A stretch of 64,000 nucleotides of DNA, taken from contig JALGSV010000001.1 in the NCBI GenBank assembly GCA_029821755.1, positions 62,001 through 126,000 of the forward strand. The letters are read 5' to 3'. The stretch comes from Candidatus Zipacnadum vermilionense (GTDB lineage: Bacteria > Armatimonadota > Zipacnadia > Zipacnadales > Zipacnadaceae). Position 1 is the stretch's first letter. Each line of letters begins with the position of its first letter. This document shows, piece by piece, positions 16,921 to 25,925 of this stretch. The position numbers and the translations under genes are program-made. Below the pieces are notes generated by a model. The model saw only the letters and a program-made list of their open reading frames with translations. It had not been told where the DNA came from and did not search any database.

Positions 16921-19842
16921 ATGAATACTATTGACGACTTGCTCGCCAACCTACCCGCCGCTCGGGCCGACTATGACCAGCCGTTGACACGCCTAACGGA
17001 GGAGCTTAGATTCGCTGGGCTGTTGCTCGAGGCCCGCCCCGACTTGGCCGCTGCCTGTCAGCCGCTCGGCGAGGAGGCAATCGGGCTGGTCGAGAGAGGG
17101 ATAGCCTCGCGCCAGGACCTCGGCGCCCTCGCGTCGGCGGTGGAGGGAGTGCTCGCCCCGCTCTGCGCGGCGGCCAAGGAGTACACCATCTTCTGTGCCG
17201 GGCACGCGCATATTGATATGAACTGGATGTGGACCTGGCCGGAGACGGTGGCGGTGACCTACGACACCTTCACCACTATGGACCGGCTGATGGACGAATT
17301 CCCCGACTTCCACTTCTCCCAGAGCCAGGCCTCCGTCTACCACGCCATGCAGAAGTACGCGCCCGAGGTCTTCGGCATGATCCAGCGGCGGGTGGCCGAG
17401 GGGCGCTGGGACATCACCGCCAGCCAGTGGGTGGAGGGCGACAAGAACATGGCCAGCGGAGAGATTCTCTGCCGGCACCTGCTGTACACTCGTCGGTGGA
17501 TGAAGGAGAACTTGGGGCTTCCGTACGACGCGGCCAAGATCGACTGGGAGCCCGACACCTTCGGCCACCCCTGGACGGTGCCGGGGATTCTCGCCCGGGG
17601 CGGGGTGACGCGGTACTACCATCACCGGTCCAACGGCCCGCGCCTGCAGGCGGCGACGGCAGGGGAGGCCTCGCGGCTGTTCTGGTGGCAAAGCCCGGAC
17701 GGCTCGCGGGTGCTGGTGTACGACGACTCGCCGTACGGGTACAACTGCGAGATCACGCCGCGGATGGTGGACGGGCTGCTGACCTTCTGCCGGCTGACCG
17801 GGCTGAAGGAGATGCTGTGGGTTTACGGCGTGGGCGATCACGGGGGCGGGCCAACGCGGGTGCACTTGCGGGCGGCGCAGGAGATGAAGTCCTGGCCGCT
17901 GTGGCCTCATATCAAGCTGACCACCACCGACGATTATTTCACCACGGTGGAGAGCAAGCCGGCGACCGCGCATCTGCCCGTGCATGAGGGGGAGCTGAAC
18001 TTCGTCTTCGAGGGGTGCTACACCTCGGAGAGCGGGGTCAAGTTCGCCAACCGGCAGAGTGAGAACGCGCTGGTAGAGTCGGAGGCCGTGGCGCTACTGG
18101 GGCGGGCGTTGGCCGGGATGCAGTACCCCCGCCAGGCGCTCACCGAGTCCTGGGAGCGGGCGATGTTCTTGCAGTTCCACGACATCCTGCCGGGGTCGGG
18201 GGTACACGAGACGTATGAGCATGCGCAGGGGCTGTTCCAGGAGACCCTGGCGAACACGAGCATGATCAAGGCGCGTAGCCTGCGGGCTATTGCGGACGGG
18301 GTGGATACCTCTGCCCTCGGGGCAGCGCAGGCTACCCAACCGGGGCCGGACGTGGGCCTGGGCGGCGGAGCCGGTGAGGGCTCCTGGTGGGGCGGCGTTT
18401 CCACCCTCGGCGCGGGGGCGGCGGGCGCGGACCCCTTCCTGGTCTTCAACCCGCTGGCCTTCCCGCGGGATGAGCTGGTCAAGGTGAAGATCTGGAACCG
18501 GGAGGTGCCGGACGCAGTACAGGTCCGGGACGTGGCGGGGAGTGTGAGTTCGGCGCAGGTGCTAGAGAGGGGACACTACTGGGGGCACAGTTTCGTGGAG
18601 GTGGCCTTCCGGGCGGAGGAGTTGCCCGCGCTGGGGTACCGGGCGTATGTGATCGAGCCGCGCGCCGGTGGAGAGGGACGGGCGGAGACGCCTGTCGTAC
18701 CCGGAGGGGAGGCCTACTTCAAGGAAGTCGCGCGGCCCATCTACGGGCTAAGGTATGTCCGGGCGCAGTACACGGGGCCGGTGGCTATTGGCAACGACCT
18801 GCTGGAGGTCACTATCTCCGGCGAGGCCGGGGGCATCATCAGCGTCGTGGACAAGGAGACCGGGCTGCAGTTGGTGCCGGAGGGGTTGGTGCTGGGGAGC
18901 GTCGAGCGGGAGCAGGAGGCACCGCACCAGATGACGGCGTGGCAGCTGGGAGCGATCACGGACAGCGTCGATCCGCTGGCGGGAGCCACGGTGGAGTCAG
19001 TGGCCCAGGGGCCGGTAGTGGCTACGGTCCGGCTGAGGGGGAAGCACAATGACTCGACTTACACGCTGGATATCAGCCTGGCGCGCGGGTCGCGGGAGAT
19101 TCAATTCCGGCTGGACGTAGACTGGCTGGAGCGCGGCGACCCCGAGACGGGCGTGCCCGTGCTGCGGACCTCCTTCCCGCTCAAGATCACCGAGGGCCGC
19201 GCCTTCTTTGAGATTCCCTGCGGGTCGATAGAGCGCCCGGCGGACGGCGAGGAGGTGCCGGCGCTCAACTGGGTCGCGCTCAACGGCGTGAGTGAGGAGG
19301 ACCCGGAGCGGCGCGTCGGGGCGACGCTGCTAAACAACTGCAAGTACGGCCACCGCGTAGCGGGCGACGAGATCCGGCTGACGCTGTTGCGGTCTAGCTA
19401 TGACCCCGATCCCCTGCCGGAGCTGGGTCGGCACGAGATTCGCTACGCCCTGTCGCCCTATGTGGATGACTACTGCCCCGGTGCGGCGCACCGGCAGGGC
19501 TACGCCTTCAACCATCCGTGCATACCGGTGGGGACGACGGCGCATGAGGGGGAGCTGCCCGCGGCGGACTCGCTGGCCCAGGTGCTGACGCACAACGCCA
19601 TCCTGTCGGGCCTCAAGCAGGCGGAGGACTCGGAGGGGACCATCGTGCGGCTCTTCGAGACGGCGGGCCGGGAGACGGAGGCGGAGGTGCGGCTGTCGCC
19701 GGCGCTGATGGCGCCGGATTCGCCCGCGGTGGAGACGGACCTGATGGAGCAGCCGCTGGCGGAGTCCACGGCGCGGATGGAGGGGGAAGTGCTACAGGTC
19801 AAGCTACCGCCGCACGGGATCGCGACGGTGCGGGTGGGGTAG
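16921..19842 (+). CDS. Alpha-mannosidase (GH38)
   Basis: FCAGHAHIDMNWMWTWPETV...FHFSQSQASVYHAM...GRWDITASQWVEGDKNMASGE...KIDWEPDTFGHPWTVPGIL: GH38 catalytic signature. Confidence 0.94.
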   Translation: MNTIDDLLANLPAARADYDQPLTRLTEELRFAGLLLEARPDLAAACQPLGEEAIGLVERGIASRQDLGALASAVEGVLAPLCAAAKEYTIFCAGHAHIDMNWMWTWPETVAVTYDTFTTMDRLMDEFPDFHFSQSQASVYHAMQKYAPEVFGMIQRRVAEGRWDITASQWVEGDKNMASGEILCRHLLYTRRWMKENLGLPYDAAKIDWEPDTFGHPWTVPGILARGGVTRYYHHRSNGPRLQAATAGEASRLFWWQSPDGSRVLVYDDSPYGYNCEITPRMVDGLLTFCRLTGLKEMLWVYGVGDHGGGPTRVHLRAAQEMKSWPLWPHIKLTTTDDYFTTVESKPATAHLPVHEGELNFVFEGCYTSESGVKFANRQSENALVESEAVALLGRALAGMQYPRQALTESWERAMFLQFHDILPGSGVHETYEHAQGLFQETLANTSMIKARSLRAIADGVDTSALGAAQATQPGPDVGLGGGAGEGSWWGGVSTLGAGAAGADPFLVFNPLAFPRDELVKVKIWNREVPDAVQVRDVAGSVSSAQVLERGHYWGHSFVEVAFRAEELPALGYRAYVIEPRAGGEGRAETPVVPGGEAYFKEVARPIYGLRYVRAQYTGPVAIGNDLLEVTISGEAGGIISVVDKETGLQLVPEGLVLGSVEREQEAPHQMTAWQLGAITDSVDPLAGATVESVAQGPVVATVRLRGKHNDSTYTLDISLARGSREIQFRLDVDWLERGDPETGVPVLRTSFPLKITEGRAFFEIPCGSIERPADGEEVPALNWVALNGVSEEDPERRVGATLLNNCKYGHRVAGDEIRLTLLRSSYDPDPLPELGRHEIRYALSPYVDDYCPGAAHRQGYAFNHPCIPVGTTAHEGELPAADSLAQVLTHNAILSGLKQAEDSEGTIVRLFETAGRETEAEVRLSPALMAPDSPAVETDLMEQPLAESTARMEGEVLQVKLPPHGIATVRVG

Positions 19843-19885
19843 CCCCGTGAGGCGGCCCTGGGGCCGCGGAAGGTAGAACGGAACC

Positions 19886-20650
19886 ATGCTGACCATCGAC
19901 CTCTCTGGCAAGATCGCCCTCGTCACGGGAGGCGCGGGGCAACTCGGGCGCGTGATGGTGCGAACGCTCGCCGATTGCGGCGCGGACGTGGCGATTCACT
20001 ACCACCATAGCGAGGACCAGGCGCGGTCTCTGTTAACCGAGCTTACCGGCCAGGGCCGGCGGGCGCTGGCGGTGCAGGCTGACGTGGGCGACCTGGACTC
20101 GGTGCTGGCGATGCGCGATGCGGTGGTGGCGGGTCTGGGCGCGCCGGACATCATTGTCAACAACGCTGTCGCGCAGTACTCCGGGACCACCGTCCTGGAG
20201 CAGGCGCCGGAGGACTACGAGAGCCAGTTCCGCACCTGCGTGCTGCAGAACGTCTTCATGGCGAAGGCCTTCGTTCCGGCGATGCAGGAGAAACGCTGGG
20301 GCCGCATCATCGCCATCAGCACGGAGTGCGTGATGCAGTGCGCGCCCCACAGTTCCGCCTACGTGTCCGGCAAGCGGGGTATGGACGGGGTGCTGCGGGT
20401 GCTGGCCAAGGAGATCGGCGAGTACGGGATCACGGTCAACCAGGTCGCGCCGGGCTCGACGGTCAGCGACGCGGCGCGCGCGGCGGGCACCGAGAGCCAG
20501 CCCGCCTACGAGGCGGGGTTGCCGCTGAGACGCCGGTCGCAGGACTATGACATCGCCCACGCGGTGGCTTTCCTGGCCTCCGACCTGGCGGGGGATATCA
20601 CCGGCGCCTTCCTCCCGGTCTGCAGTGGCGCAGTGATGCCGACGATTTGA
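19886..20650 (+). CDS. SDR-family oxidoreductase (3-oxoacyl-ACP reductase-like)
   Basis: IALVTGGAGQLGRVMVRTLAD; NNAVAQYSG; SAYVSGKRGMDGV (YxxxK); QVAPGSTVSD. Confidence 0.93.
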   Translation: MLTIDLSGKIALVTGGAGQLGRVMVRTLADCGADVAIHYHHSEDQARSLLTELTGQGRRALAVQADVGDLDSVLAMRDAVVAGLGAPDIIVNNAVAQYSGTTVLEQAPEDYESQFRTCVLQNVFMAKAFVPAMQEKRWGRIIAISTECVMQCAPHSSAYVSGKRGMDGVLRVLAKEIGEYGITVNQVAPGSTVSDAARAAGTESQPAYEAGLPLRRRSQDYDIAHAVAFLASDLAGDITGAFLPVCSGAVMPTI

Positions 20651-20731
20651 AGCGGCATGGTGACCTGTCGCTGCACGGGATTGCGGCGGAGCGGGCGGGA
20701 CGGCCACTGGCAATCCGGAGGAATTAGTGTA

Positions 20732-20761
20732 TTGACAAATCGTCAACGACTCATATATGAT
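20732..20761 (+). promoter_or_regulatory. Promoter of the toxin-antitoxin operon with overlapping operator-like palindrome
   Basis: TTGACA (20732-20737) with TATATG/TATGAT -10 candidates (20754-20761); TTGAC-AAATC-GTCAA palindrome at 20732-20746 overlaps the -35. Confidence 0.6.
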
Positions 20762-20784
20762 GAGACGGTTCGGCTGGGTGCGTC

Positions 20785-21051
20785 ATGAAGATAACTCGAG
20801 TCGGCGCAACCGCCCACGTTCGCGAGAAGCTGCTGGAAAAGCACGGGGTGGAGTGGCACGAAGTGGAGGAGGTCATGGCGCAGGGCCTGCACCCCAGGCG
20901 CGGGAAGAAGGCGCACGGCGAGCCCAGGTACAACCTCGTCGGTCGCACCACCGCGGGCCGAGAGCTAAAGGTGATCTTCGCCTGGGAGGCCGAGGGCGAG
21001 GCCCGCGTGGTTACGGCCTTTGACGCGGGCAAACAACCGAGGAAGAAATGA
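20785..21051 (+). CDS. BrnT-like / DUF4258-like RelE-fold toxin candidate
   Basis: 88 aa: LLEKHGVEWHEVEEVM...RYNLVGRTTAGRELKVIFAWEAEGEARVVTAFDAG; upstream of and overlapping a BrnA-like antitoxin. Confidence 0.7.
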   Translation: MKITRVGATAHVREKLLEKHGVEWHEVEEVMAQGLHPRRGKKAHGEPRYNLVGRTTAGRELKVIFAWEAEGEARVVTAFDAGKQPRKK

Positions 21052-21431
21052 GACAGACCATGACCAATGGCAGCAAGAGGCCCAAGACCATACCGGATTT
21101 CCAGAGCGAGGACGAGGAGATAGAGTTCTGGGACACCCACGACCCGGATGACTATTTTGAGGCAGAGCCGCTGGAGGACCTGATCGTGGCAATCAAGCCA
21201 CAGCCGAAGAAGGCGGTCACGCTCCGCATGGACCCTGACCTGCTCGCCCAGCTCAAAGAGGTGGCCGCGCAACACCACATCGGTTATCAGACCCTGGCGC
21301 GTGAACTCCTCAGGCATGCGCTGTCCAGCGGAACCCCGCGCGTGGCGGGGGCCACGGTGAAAGGCCAGGCGGCTCCCGGGGTGATTGTCAAAGCTAAGGC
21401 CGCCAAGCTCAAGGAGCCAAAGAGCGCCTGA
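21048..21431 (+). CDS. BrnA/CopG-like antitoxin candidate
   Basis: IPDFQSEDEEIEFWDTHDPDDYF...KKAVTLRMDPDLLAQLKEVAAQHHIGYQTLARELLRHAL; ATGA overlap with the toxin ORF. Confidence 0.75.
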   Translation: MRQTMTNGSKRPKTIPDFQSEDEEIEFWDTHDPDDYFEAEPLEDLIVAIKPQPKKAVTLRMDPDLLAQLKEVAAQHHIGYQTLARELLRHALSSGTPRVAGATVKGQAAPGVIVKAKAAKLKEPKSA

Positions 21432-21485
21432 GGGCGGCCCTTGGCCGCGGATGGCGAAACGGGCACGACGGACGGGAGGTGCGTC

Positions 21486-22319
21486 ATGCGGAAGCTCGGA
21501 TGGGTGGCGGCGTTTCTGGCCGTGTTCATCTTCGGGGCGGCTGTCGGCGCCGGCATGTCTTACCACCACAGCTATCGGTCCTATATGGGCCTGGAGGCGG
21601 ACACGGCGGCCGGGCATCTGCTGACCGACCTTGCCGTCGCACGCCACCTGCGATTGGGGGAGCCCGAGACGGCAATGAGGAGCCTCGACGAGAAGATCGA
21701 CGGAGAGATCGTGTTCGTGGCCCAGCCGCCGCCAGGGATTCCACAGACCGCCCTCGCCAGGCGTGCGCTCACCGCGGCGAAGACCTACCGTGAGCGCTTC
21801 CCGTCAGGTTCGCCTCACGCTGCACAGGTCGCGCTGGCGCTCCAAGGCATCCAGGTGGAGCCGCGGGAGGCGCATCTCGGCATGCTTACCAAGGTGGGTG
21901 ACGCCGCTCCTGCGTTCGCCGTGAAGACCATCAACGGCACGCGGTTCGACCTCGCGAGGGCACGCGGTAAGGTGGTCGTGCTAAACCTGTTCTCGCCGAC
22001 ATGCGGCGCGTGTCTGCAGGAGCTGCCGCACCTGGAGCGGGAGATCTGGGCGAAGTACAAGGGCCGTGAGATCGCGATGGTCGCGATCGCGCGAGATTGC
22101 ACCCCGGAGGAGATCCGCGCGATCCCCCAGGCGGAGGCCCTGAGCTTCCTCATCGCCACTGACCCCGATAGAGCGGTCTTTCGGAAGTACGCGGAGCAGT
22201 ACGTGCCCCAGACGTACGTCATCGACCCGGCGGGGAAGATCGCGTACCAGTGCACCGGCTTCTACCCCGGCGACACGGCAGAGATGGCCAAGGTGATCGA
22301 GAACCTCCTCCGAGAGTGA
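21486..22319 (+). CDS. TlpA/redoxin-family membrane-anchored thioredoxin-fold protein
   Basis: N-terminal TM segment; VGDAAPAFAVKTINGTRFDLARARGKVVVLNLFSPTCGACLQELPHLE (CxxC); YVPQTYVIDPAGKIAYQCTGFYPGD. Confidence 0.9.
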   Translation: MRKLGWVAAFLAVFIFGAAVGAGMSYHHSYRSYMGLEADTAAGHLLTDLAVARHLRLGEPETAMRSLDEKIDGEIVFVAQPPPGIPQTALARRALTAAKTYRERFPSGSPHAAQVALALQGIQVEPREAHLGMLTKVGDAAPAFAVKTINGTRFDLARARGKVVVLNLFSPTCGACLQELPHLEREIWAKYKGREIAMVAIARDCTPEEIRAIPQAEALSFLIATDPDRAVFRKYAEQYVPQTYVIDPAGKIAYQCTGFYPGDTAEMAKVIENLLRE

Positions 22320-22440
22320 CTGCAGGTAAGCGCGGGGCTTCCGGCGTGGAGGGTCTGCAGAAGGCCCTGAGCTGCCGAGCCAGCCGCATGGCCTCCTGAC
22401 CTGCCCCATTCGCGCTACCACTGCATAACTCAGAGCGCCT

Positions 22441-22620
22441 GTCGCTGCGACGCTGGTCGCACGACTATGACATCGCCCACGCGGTGGCCTTCCTGGTCTC
22501 CAACCTGGCGGCGGACCTCACCGGCGCCTTCCTCCCGGTCTGCAGTGGCGCAGTGATGCCGGCGATTTGAAGTCGCTGCTATGCGCCGCCGCATGGGATT
22601 GCGACGGTGAGGGTGGGGTA
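22441..22620 (+). repeat. Duplicated relic of the SDR 3' end (22441-22572) plus alpha-mannosidase 3' tail (22585-22620)
   Basis: 22441-22572 aligns without gaps to 20521-20652 with about 11 mismatches in 132 nt; CCGCCGCATGGGATTGCGACGGTGAGGGTGGGGTAA still reads PPHGIATVRVG*, the GH38 C-terminus. Confidence 0.85.
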
Positions 22621-22648
22621 AGGCGGGAGCGAAACAGCCGTGTGGTGC

Positions 22649-22677
22649 TTGCTCAAAGCTCCAACTGCTCCTATACT
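22649..22677 (+). promoter_or_regulatory. Candidate sigma70 promoter of the membrane protein/MBL pair
   Basis: TTGCTC (22649-22654), 17 nt spacer, TATACT (22672-22677), about 55 nt before the ATG. Confidence 0.5.
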
Positions 22678-22732
22678 AACATAATGGCTGGACTGGTTTG
22701 CGGGGGGAAAGTCAGACGGCGGGAGGTAGAGT

Positions 22733-23422
22733 ATGGGGCCTAGCGTCAGACTGCAGGAGTTGACATTGTACGAGGCGTTCGGCTACCTCGTGCCGGGCGC
22801 AAGCATAGTCGCTTGGACAATGCTGGTGCCGTGGGACGGCCTGAGAGCTTGGGCGGCTGGAGGCGCGGGGAGGCTATCATTCTGGGTTGGGGCGATAGTG
22901 CTTGCGTATCTGGCGGGGCACTTGGCGCAGGCCGTGGGGAACCGCCTACCTAAGCGGCCCAGGGGGAACGCTGTCGGCGACATGGGGTTCGGGTCTGATA
23001 CACAGAGCACCGTACGCAGCGCGGTTCGTAGGCAGTTTGGGGAGGACGCGGTCGCGGATGAGGACGTCTTCAGATTCTGCGCGGCGTTCGTCAAGCGGGA
23101 GGGCTGCTTCAGGGAGTGGGAGTTGTTCGAGTACCGGGAGGGGTTCTATCGAGGGATGTGGGTTGTAACCGGCATTGCGTTTCTGGAGGTGGTCGTAGCT
23201 TACTTCACGGGGCAGCATTTGGGGTTTCCCTGGGGCGGGCCGATCAGGCAGCCCTGGATCGCTACGCTGGTGGCCCTGGGGATCACGTTCTGGCTTTTTG
23301 GAGCACGGTATTTCCGATTCCGTGGATACTTGGTTGGGGGAACATACGTGAGTTTCTGCGAGTGCGTGCTGTCGGGGGGAACTGCCAGGCGGACGACTCC
23401 CGAGCGAGGCGAAGATCGATGA
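22733..23422 (+). CDS. Predicted 4-TM membrane protein of unknown function
   Basis: Hydrophobic blocks LYEAFGYLVPGASIVAWTMLV, LSFWVGAIVLAYLAGHLAQAV, GMWVVTGIAFLEVVVAYF, WIATLVALGITFWLFGARYF; ATGA overlap with the next gene. Confidence 0.75.
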   Translation: MGPSVRLQELTLYEAFGYLVPGASIVAWTMLVPWDGLRAWAAGGAGRLSFWVGAIVLAYLAGHLAQAVGNRLPKRPRGNAVGDMGFGSDTQSTVRSAVRRQFGEDAVADEDVFRFCAAFVKREGCFREWELFEYREGFYRGMWVVTGIAFLEVVVAYFTGQHLGFPWGGPIRQPWIATLVALGITFWLFGARYFRFRGYLVGGTYVSFCECVLSGGTARRTTPERGEDR

Positions 23423-24495
23423 ACGAGAAACGGTGGTGGCAGACTTTCTTCACGTACGTGTGGGTGTTCAACACAGGGAGAGGTCTGGCAGTGTGCGTCC
23501 GCTTCCCGCATGACGTTGGACTGCTCTACGATCTTGGGTCAAGTGAGAGGTTCTCACCTACTGGGTTCATAGCTGAGCACATCAAGCCGCGTCTCCGCAC
23601 GTTCGGCAATTGCCCAGTCGGGCAGGTTGTGCTGTCGCATCCGCATGCCGACCACATCGCTGAAATCTCCGCGATTGCAGAGAAAAGCTCGTGCTACCCG
23701 AAGTTACTCACCTGCCCGCATGACAAGGGGCCAGACGAGGGGCCAGATGAGCGAGTGAACTTCACTCGGGTGAACAACCCGGCATCTGCGGCCGACCTGG
23801 TCGAGGAGTACCGTGAGGTGTTCAAGCCGCGCCGTCTGCCCCTTCAGACCATTGAGTCAGAGACCGACAATCCCGTCCCGAATGTCGAGTATGGTATCTA
23901 CTATCTCAGACCACCGGAGTGTGACAAGCTTCATCCGGAAGATGATCAGGCGTACTCCAACGCCATGAGTCTGGTGCTGTACATTCGTCATGGGCTCCAA
24001 AGCGTCCTGATCCCTGGGGACATCACGCCCGAGGCGATGGAGCGGGTTCTGGCCGGCGGGAAAGGGGTCGAGAAGCGTTACACTTACTTCGGTGATCTCC
24101 CGAAAGGGATGCCCAATAGCATCAACCTCTGCACATCGAGCCAGCCAGACCTCGGGGACCTTCTGAGTGAGAGGGGGCTGACGCTTCTCGTAGCTCCTCA
24201 CCACGGTCTTGAATCGGGTTTCTGCGAAGCGCTGTTCGACTGTATGAAGGGAGGCAAGCCGACGCTGAACATCATCTCAGAGAAACGTCATCTCAAAGAC
24301 ACGGACGGGAAAGTGGACACAAACTATCAGGGCGAGGATGGTGCACATGGCGTGAAGGTGGATGTCGAGGGCACTGTGGAGGACCGCTATTCGGTGTCGA
24401 CCCGCGACGGCCATCACATACTCGCTGTGTTGCGCGGGACTCAGCCGCGACTGGAGGTTCGTCTCCGCAAGGACGCGGAGGAACTGCTTCTGTAG
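23419..24495 (+). CDS. Metallo-beta-lactamase-fold hydrolase, ComEC/Rec2-like
   Basis: VVLSHPHADHIAEI (HxHxDH), SNAMSLVLYIRHGLQSVLIPGDI, LLVAPHHGLESGF, YSVSTRDGHHILAVLRG; the start overlaps the upstream stop. Confidence 0.85.
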   Translation: MNEKRWWQTFFTYVWVFNTGRGLAVCVRFPHDVGLLYDLGSSERFSPTGFIAEHIKPRLRTFGNCPVGQVVLSHPHADHIAEISAIAEKSSCYPKLLTCPHDKGPDEGPDERVNFTRVNNPASAADLVEEYREVFKPRRLPLQTIESETDNPVPNVEYGIYYLRPPECDKLHPEDDQAYSNAMSLVLYIRHGLQSVLIPGDITPEAMERVLAGGKGVEKRYTYFGDLPKGMPNSINLCTSSQPDLGDLLSERGLTLLVAPHHGLESGFCEALFDCMKGGKPTLNIISEKRHLKDTDGKVDTNYQGEDGAHGVKVDVEGTVEDRYSVSTRDGHHILAVLRGTQPRLEVRLRKDAEELLL

Positions 24496-24535
24496 TTCTT
24501 GGCGGGCGCCAGCCCTCCTCAAGCCTGAGCGCTGC

Positions 24536-25822
24536 TCACTGGCCTTGCCCGAGCGCCTCCTCATATAGCTTCAGCGTCTGCTCAACCGCCGCATCTACCG
24601 TATAGTGCCGCGCTATGCCCTCGGCGCCGAACTGGCCCAGGCGGTCGGCTTCCTCCGGGTGGTCCTGCAAGCGGGCCAGCGCCGCCGCCAGGGCCTCCGG
24701 GCTATCCGGCTCGACCAACAGGCCGCCACCGGTTAGCTCCAGCATCTCCGGGAATACTCCTCGATTCGGGACTACCACTGGCACCCCGGCGGCCAGGGCC
24801 TCCATCGCCGACAGCCCTCGCGCCTCGGCGAAGCGGCTGGGGAGGGCGTAGACGCTGAGGCTGTGCAGGAAACGCACCTTTTCTTCCAGGCTGATTTCCC
24901 CCAGATACTCCACCTGCCCGGCCAGTCCCGCCTCCCGCACCCGCTGCTGGACTTGCCGCCAGTAGGGCTTGTCCAGCACCTTACCTGCCACCCTCAGTCT
25001 CGCTTCCCGCCCCTGTTCCGCCAGCTTCGCCAGGGCCTCCACGACGAGGTCCACAGCCTTGCCGCCGGTAATGGCGGAGAGGTAGCCGATGGTGAAGGGC
25101 TGGCGGGGGCGAGGACCGGGACGGGCGAAGAGGGGGGCCTCCAGGCCGGTGCGGACCATACGAATGCGGTCGGGCGGGACGTCCAGGTACTCGCTCATCT
25201 TGCCGGCATGGGCCGTGTAGGGGGCGATGAACAGGTCCACGGCGCGGGCATGCTCCTGCATGAGCTGCTGCGCTTGGGAGCGATAGGGCTCAGGCATCTC
25301 CCCGACGAAGTCCTCTTCGCCCTGCAGTCCCGCCACCACTGGCACGCCCAGGCGGCGCTTGACCTCGGTGCCTACCGCGCCCAGCATGGTGTTGGTGAGG
25401 ACCACCAGGTCCGGGCGGGGGGCGCGCGCCAGGAAGCGCACCAGTCGCTCCAGTTCCGCCCTCTGGCGGCCCTGGCTCCCGGAGAGCACCGAGACGGTCA
25501 TGACCGCCAGGTCCGCGGCCTTGTTGCTCACCGCGAAGCGCGTGGCGAAGTTGAGCAAGCCAGGTTGGTCGAGGAGGCCCCGCACCGCCGCCGGAGCCCT
25601 CCCGCAGGTCGGACACTTCTGCTGCAGGAACATGTTGATGCCGCCGAGCAGGATGGGGGTGGTGGCTAGAGGGCGGGAGCCCTCCAGCTTGAGGGGTGTA
25701 TAGAGGGGCGTGACCTGCACGTCATGGCCGCGCGCGAGCAGCCCGCGAATCAACACGAGGTCGCGCGCGCAGGCTCCGCAGTACATGCCGGCCGCGCCGG
25801 CGGCGAGGTAAGCGATTCGCAT
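24536..25822 (-). CDS. Glycosyltransferase family 4 (GT4)
   Basis: MRIAYLAAGAAGMYCGACARDLVLIRGLLARGHDVQVTPLYTPL...GEISLEEKVRFLHSLSVYALPSRFAEARGLSAMEALAAGVPVVVPNRGVFPEML. Confidence 0.92.
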   Translation of the reverse strand: MRIAYLAAGAAGMYCGACARDLVLIRGLLARGHDVQVTPLYTPLKLEGSRPLATTPILLGGINMFLQQKCPTCGRAPAAVRGLLDQPGLLNFATRFAVSNKAADLAVMTVSVLSGSQGRQRAELERLVRFLARAPRPDLVVLTNTMLGAVGTEVKRRLGVPVVAGLQGEEDFVGEMPEPYRSQAQQLMQEHARAVDLFIAPYTAHAGKMSEYLDVPPDRIRMVRTGLEAPLFARPGPRPRQPFTIGYLSAITGGKAVDLVVEALAKLAEQGREARLRVAGKVLDKPYWRQVQQRVREAGLAGQVEYLGEISLEEKVRFLHSLSVYALPSRFAEARGLSAMEALAAGVPVVVPNRGVFPEMLELTGGGLLVEPDSPEALAAALARLQDHPEEADRLGQFGAEGIARHYTVDAAVEQTLKLYEEALGQGQ

Positions 25823-25925
25823 GCTGGTCCTTCGTGTGGACTCCTTGACGCTCCCCTTCGTACTCCCTACAATACCGCGAGAGGCCGGCCCGCGCAAGGG
25901 GGTCGGCCTGCTTCGCTACTTCGCG

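Follow-up and report, generated by a model that had tools for sequence, protein, structure and literature searches.

Gene content and insertion site

Two overlapping genes on the forward strand of the window (the whole 64-kb stretch of DNA that was analysed) make up the locus described here. Gene A (22733..23422) begins with ATG and encodes a 229-aa, four-helix membrane protein that is probably Csx27-like. Gene B (23419..24495), also with an ATG start, encodes a 358-aa stand-alone ComEC-type MBL-fold protein, predicted to be a metal-dependent DNase. The stop of A and the start of B overlap as ATGA (23419..23422, +), indicative of translational coupling, and both the ORFs and the sequence bore out the initial annotation, which had described a 229-aa membrane protein and a 358-aa MBL-fold protein overlapping in this manner. 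A ribosome-binding site, GGGAGG, is present in the sequence ahead of the gene A ATG (22721..22726, +). The promoter that had been proposed upstream, TTGCTC-N17-TATACT, is present at 22649..22677 (+) and matches the consensus at three of six and five of six positions, respectively; however, it is weak, its promoter scan score fell below threshold and a strong promoter upstream of gene A was rejected. An Rfam search of the A-B region returned no match. The reported local drop in base composition is real: 600-bp windows of gene B reach 57–59 % GC, the lowest in the 64 kb, for which the overall GC content is 65.7 %. Third-position GC was 0.74 in gene A and 0.70 in gene B, compared to 0.83–0.89 in four other genes.

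Comparison with a genome of the same genus (G001) revealed a clear empty site. In G001, the mannosidase gene is followed by a glycosyltransferase gene after a gap of 16 bp, whereas 4.7 kb separates them in the window; a nitroreductase gene lies upstream of the mannosidase gene in both, with order kept. The 4.7-kb segment absent from G001 (19843..24535), which may have been gained in one step or several, contains an SDR gene, BrnT/BrnA, a thioredoxin-like gene and A-B. BrnT/BrnA (CopG; 20785..21431, +) is the toxin-antitoxin pair that the initial annotation had noted nearby, and is a neighbour within the inserted segment that lies outside the module itself. Directly upstream of A-B is a rearrangement scar (22440..22620), in which the 3' ends of both the SDR gene and the mannosidase gene occur a second time in truncated form. 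It forms a 180-bp direct repeat, 86 % identical, with positions 20520–20702, bracketing the BrnT/BrnA and thioredoxin-like genes and leaving a broken gene remnant before A. The flanking glycosyltransferase (24536–25822) matched Pfam GT4-conflict barely above the cut-off, and is probably outside any conflict system as it occupies the same site in G001 without the insert. The reading of A-B as a horizontally acquired, mobile two-gene membrane and MBL module is well supported.

Gene B and the ComEC nuclease domain

All three blocks previously noted in gene B (HPHADH, SLVLYIRHGLQSVLIPGD and APHHGLESG) were found in its translation. The HPHADH metal-binding motif spans residues 74–79 (23638..23655, +), with H74, H76, D78 and H79 kept in at least 21 of 22 homologues, and the SLVLYIRHGLQSVLIPGD block is of the N-S/GD type. 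The absence of a ComEC channel domain was also borne out, as gene B matched only the C-terminal tail of NCBIfam TIGR00361 (ComEC_Rec2), scoring 28 bits where the cut-off is 190. It matched Pfam Lactamase_B at the cut-off. A single-chain AlphaFold model built from 22 homologues (pLDDT 90) found its best PDB match in the crystal structure of the ComEC beta-lactamase-like domain (9ic4, E 1e-9), which was also the best match to the gene B family profile by sequence (E 2e-17). The Pce esterase was another structural neighbour of the model. ComEC residues H598, D600, D602, H603, D700 and H725 correspond to H74, H76, D78, H79, D201 and H261 of gene B; the first five of these are kept as predicted metal ligands, and H261 is the counterpart of the ComEC histidine that contacts phosphate and DNA. 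Among the 22 homologues, D78, H79, D201 and H261 are invariant, and H74 and H76 are each present in 21. The ComEC beta-lactamase-like domain is an Mn2+-dependent endo/exonuclease that acts at the membrane, and mutating the mapped residues abolishes or weakens its nuclease activity (PMC12455585). Given the ComEC fold and profile match, and the retention of sites at which mutation affects the ComEC nuclease, the most likely function of gene B, as predicted from sequence and model, is that of a two-metal DNase.

Some observations count against the DNase reading. The counterpart of the DNA-contacting ComEC serine S728 is Leu or Arg in gene B, and several MBL-fold proteins process lipids, cyclic nucleotides or phosphorylcholine, with the Pce esterase among the structural neighbours noted above. 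Instead of a nuclease, gene B could be a regulatory phosphodiesterase that keeps A in check by breaking down a nucleotide messenger or small ligand. Loss of the serine fits such a role, many MBL-fold phosphodiesterases use small substrates, and the MBL-fold nucleases of phage anti-CBASS reportedly cleave cyclic nucleotides. Nonetheless, gene B is closest to ComEC and not to the cyclic-nucleotide enzymes, and the A-B operon contains no nucleotide cyclase or CARF/SAVED gene, such that we consider a regulatory phosphodiesterase improbable.

Gene A and the Csx27 family

The four hydrophobic segments initially ascribed to gene A are supported by the long helices of its single-chain AlphaFold model (residues 12–31, 46–70, 129–158 and 173–213; mean pLDDT 84.9). 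A simple hydrophobicity counter, which under-counts, scored two segments in the same protein. Residue R140 was invariant in the homologue alignment. The positive-inside rule predicts cytosolic N and C termini, and the middle domain (about residues 71–128), which is basic and helical, would probably also be cytosolic.

Gene A itself had no direct match in Pfam, NCBIfam or PADLOC, including the PADLOC Csx27 profile, whereas all five close relatives that were scanned matched Csx27 (E 6e-8 to 7e-4). The A partner in Adhaeribacter matched the same profile at 7e-7, along with tm_4 and PDC-M48A. Two haloarchaeal A partners also matched Csx27, and the A homologues cover most of the profile length. A fold search of the gene A model against solved structures returned nothing significant and matched no solved pore, and sequence comparison with the PDB gave a non-significant E of 2.4 to KwaA of Kiwa and no other signal. 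Csx27 is an accessory membrane protein of type VI-B CRISPR systems, where its known partner, Cas13b, is likewise a nuclease. The A homologues share the Csx27 profile, but A is paired with an MBL protein and has neither Cas13b nor a CRISPR array beside it: no CRISPR array-like repeat family was present at 19000–25900 and no type VI-B effector candidate was found between the genes flanking the insertion. The A-B pair, examined over this region and these genes, is not a type VI-B system.

Conservation of the pair and exchange of the membrane partner

Neighbourhood conservation, a check that the initial annotation had proposed, showed that the pairing does recur. A genome-wide scan identified 80 B homologue loci, 65 of which were evaluable, and a directly adjoining small membrane-protein gene (140–290 aa, either containing two or more hydrophobic segments or matching the A profile) was present in 52 of them, compared to 18 of 449 control genes drawn from the same loci. 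The A profile recognized 21 of these 52 partners. The Fisher p value of about 3e-43 is overstated as the loci are kin, yet the contrast is large. In homologous loci the A and B genes are often joined via ATGA or separated by a few bases. Gene order is identical in the closest B relatives (L062, L067 and L068) and is kept on an Adhaeribacter swui plasmid that carries both genes. The closest B relatives display 43–54 % identity and belong to about nine other phyla (Acidobacteria, Verrucomicrobia, Omnitrophota, Elusimicrobia, Nitrospirae, Clostridia, Calditrichia, Aminicenantes and Eisenbacteria), and the pair overall is distributed across many phyla and archaea. Gene B falls in a long-B clade that is well supported in the tree, spans phyla and carries an insert of about 30 extra residues between D201 and H261.

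Within the phylum of the window, A was present in six of 292 genomes, its own included. The other five genomes contained six A loci, three of which (L045, L046 and L050) directly adjoin an MBL gene. In L047 the MBL gene is about 2.4 kb from A, and in L048 and L049 A shares an operon with an MBL-like gene and an E1/JAB-type gene. The MBL assignments in L048, L049 and L050 are motifs judged by eye, and the MBL-like protein of L048 has no Pfam match. Regarding mobile elements, phage records contained no B homologues and a scan of viral contigs with a single query sequence gave no match; the same scan with an alignment (A3) gave eight loci, one of which (L054, 7264–8882) is on an IMG/VR contig that carries the A-B pair at its end. 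Judging by this contig, the pair may travel on phage or plasmid.

Mapping membrane partners onto the B phylogeny revealed that the partner family has switched at least twice on the tree. L062, L067 and L068 carry A, whilst L064, L065 and L066 carry in its place an unrelated TM family, A7, with no detectable homology to A. A7 genes were located beside B at L064 976–1599, L065 7360–7983, L066 4961–5572, L072 6276–6956, L082 7374–7982, L097 7393–7992 and L013 5402–6004. Assignment of A7 to Pfam 8xMP was rejected, as the match was weak and limited to two of seven members (best E 0.012).

Several further arrangements were observed. Still other TM types adjoin B in L069 and in L105/L106. Tandem long and short MBL genes share one operon with a single membrane partner in L070, L071, L072, L073, L066, L063 and L135, and in L046 A is sandwiched between two MBL genes. 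In L048 (8285–12744), L049 (7853–11947) and L016 (1626–6918, with a second MBL after the A-like gene), an A-like membrane protein is encoded in one operon with an E2-E1-JAB fusion and an MBL-like protein, joining ubiquitin-like machinery to the A membrane family.

Partner-family switching, as read from these sequences, would also fit exchangeable effectors. This bears on abortive infection as an explanation, whereby A would be a toxic pore or depolarizing effector like Csx28, switched on by B upon sensing or processing of phage nucleic acid, with death or arrest of the cell as the outcome. Csx28 does form a depolarizing pore (PMC12669027). A-type proteins occur with other putative sensors, both in the E1-E2-JAB operons of L048 and L049, where the MBL-like protein is a different one, and in the pairing of Csx27 with Cas13b, and the replacement of A by unrelated A7 in related B clades is common behaviour for effectors. 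However, Csx27 is distinct from Csx28, the A model did not significantly match a solved pore, no homology between A and A7 is detectable, and the constant component is B, the bearer of the enzymatic active site. We regard abortive infection as less likely than not, and as the main rival to the mechanism proposed below. Of the module with a membrane effector proposed in the initial annotation, the horizontally acquired membrane and MBL pair stands, but A need not be an effector, being at least as likely to tether the nuclease to the membrane or to act as its sensor there.

Defence context of homologues

Homologue neighbourhoods were dense in defence genes. PADLOC analysis of 80 proteins neighbouring the homologues matched 498 families at a cut-off of 1e-8, compared to 37 for 80 control proteins taken from arbitrarily placed regions of the window genome and of its relatives; as PADLOC models are partly redundant, this is a ratio of families and not of genes. 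Matches included MADS, type I RM, DISARM DrmD, a BREX helicase and Hma. For example, L062 carries PDC-S02 and an HmaA-like helicase upstream and an HmaB-like methylase downstream, whilst L067 has E1-E2-JAB upstream and the defence reverse transcriptase UG21 downstream. HmaB and DUF499 lie beside the A and MBL genes of L046, type I restriction HsdR and a YgjP protease are near those of L047, and E2-E1-JAB is part of the A operon in L048. On a Methylocystis plasmid, B and an A7-type partner occur together with a restriction endonuclease and BrnT/CopG. B homologues did not occur in housekeeping settings, and the whole proteins matched no experimentally characterized non-defence family. Counting against a defence role, the surroundings of A-B in the window contain only the toxin-antitoxin pair and no rich defence island. 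Based on the conserved adjacency, the defence neighbourhoods relative to control, the empty site in G001 and the PADLOC matches, A-B is very probably a mobile anti-phage defence module, and we propose it as a candidate.

These observations also bear on whether A and B are a housekeeping or DNA-uptake pair, in effect a split ComEC with no defence role. A ComEC-type domain beside a membrane protein does resemble the layout of ComEC. However, the host genome encodes its own separate 836-aa ComEC elsewhere, for which reason this reading was rejected; B is missing from 150 relatives of the window genome save for one weak partial match, the pair lies within the insertion that is empty in G001, and homologues are carried by bacterial and archaeal plasmids and in defence islands. 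A housekeeping role is therefore highly improbable.

Proposed mechanism and relation to known systems

For the candidate defence module, we propose with about even confidence that A holds or licenses the ComEC-type DNase B at the inner membrane, where it cuts incoming DNA. Gene B would act as a ComEC-type MBL DNase that lacks the DNA channel, and gene A as a Csx27-like four-helix inner-membrane protein that binds B and tethers it or releases its activity. Injection of phage DNA would be the trigger, and the incoming DNA would be cut at its point of entry, destroying the phage DNA instead of killing the cell. The conserved pair, the horizontal insertion, the retained ComEC fold and catalytic residues, the topology model of A and the defence-island context of the homologues are the observations that this model brings together. 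It draws on the precedents of SNIPE, Kiwa and Zorya, and on the fact that Csx27 also accompanies a nuclease in type VI-B systems. More tentatively, and with rather less confidence than an even chance, Csx27-like proteins may be general membrane partners of unrelated nucleases: Cas13b in type VI-B, a ComEC-derived DNase here and E1-JAB operons elsewhere. The pair would then be a split ComEC that has been repurposed for immunity and cuts entering DNA, with A7 and other families able to replace A.

The initial annotation had considered the system undescribed. This requires qualification, as the pair is, by sequence, a divergent long-MBL variant of the PADLOC candidate PDC-M48 and not a strict member; its description as a mobile and probably defensive membrane and MBL module stands. 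PDC-M48, a two-gene candidate as read from PADLOC model names and not from a paper, shares the membrane and MBL layout. Gene B matched PDC-M48B (PDLC04675) in two stretches (E 1.3e-11), compared to 5e-94 for a short-type B relative, and the genes are adjacent, with the A/B ATGA overlap and conserved adjacency. In contrast, the window gene A had no PADLOC match to PDC-M48A, to which its relatives matched weakly (Adhaeribacter 1.5e-4, L070 0.015), and gene B belongs to the long-MBL clade with its extra insert. The literature searched contained no experiments on PDC-M48 and nothing specific on Csx27 together with MBL; a figure legend in the CoCoNuTs paper lists an MBL-fold protein and a 4-TM protein among members of defence superoperons. 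These data suggest that the PDC-M48 candidate is far broader than the PADLOC models, and that many phyla have co-opted the ComEC DNA-uptake nuclease for immunity. As a minimal two-gene system containing a probable Csx27 relative without CRISPR, the pair also makes the role of Csx27 approachable via one nuclease and one membrane protein.

Three other systems warrant comparison. ComEC/Rec2 has a nuclease domain with the fold and catalytic residues of gene B, but gene B has no channel or OB domain, its membrane part is a separate and unrelated four-helix protein, and it falls short of the channel and MBL domain score; by sequence, it is not ComEC/Rec2. Kiwa (KwaA/KwaB) likewise consists of two genes, a four-helix membrane protein and a cytosolic DNA-acting partner. 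However, KwaB binds DNA without cutting it, gene B has an MBL fold and similarity to KwaA is not significant; judged by KwaA/KwaB homology, the pair is not Kiwa. Both Kiwa and Zorya are membrane-held, DNA-acting defences (PMC12904381), as is SNIPE (PMC13190303). SNIPE, whose nuclease is held at the inner membrane and cuts injected phage DNA, is the candidate for what A-B may work like, although it is a single protein with other domains and we claim no homology between the two.
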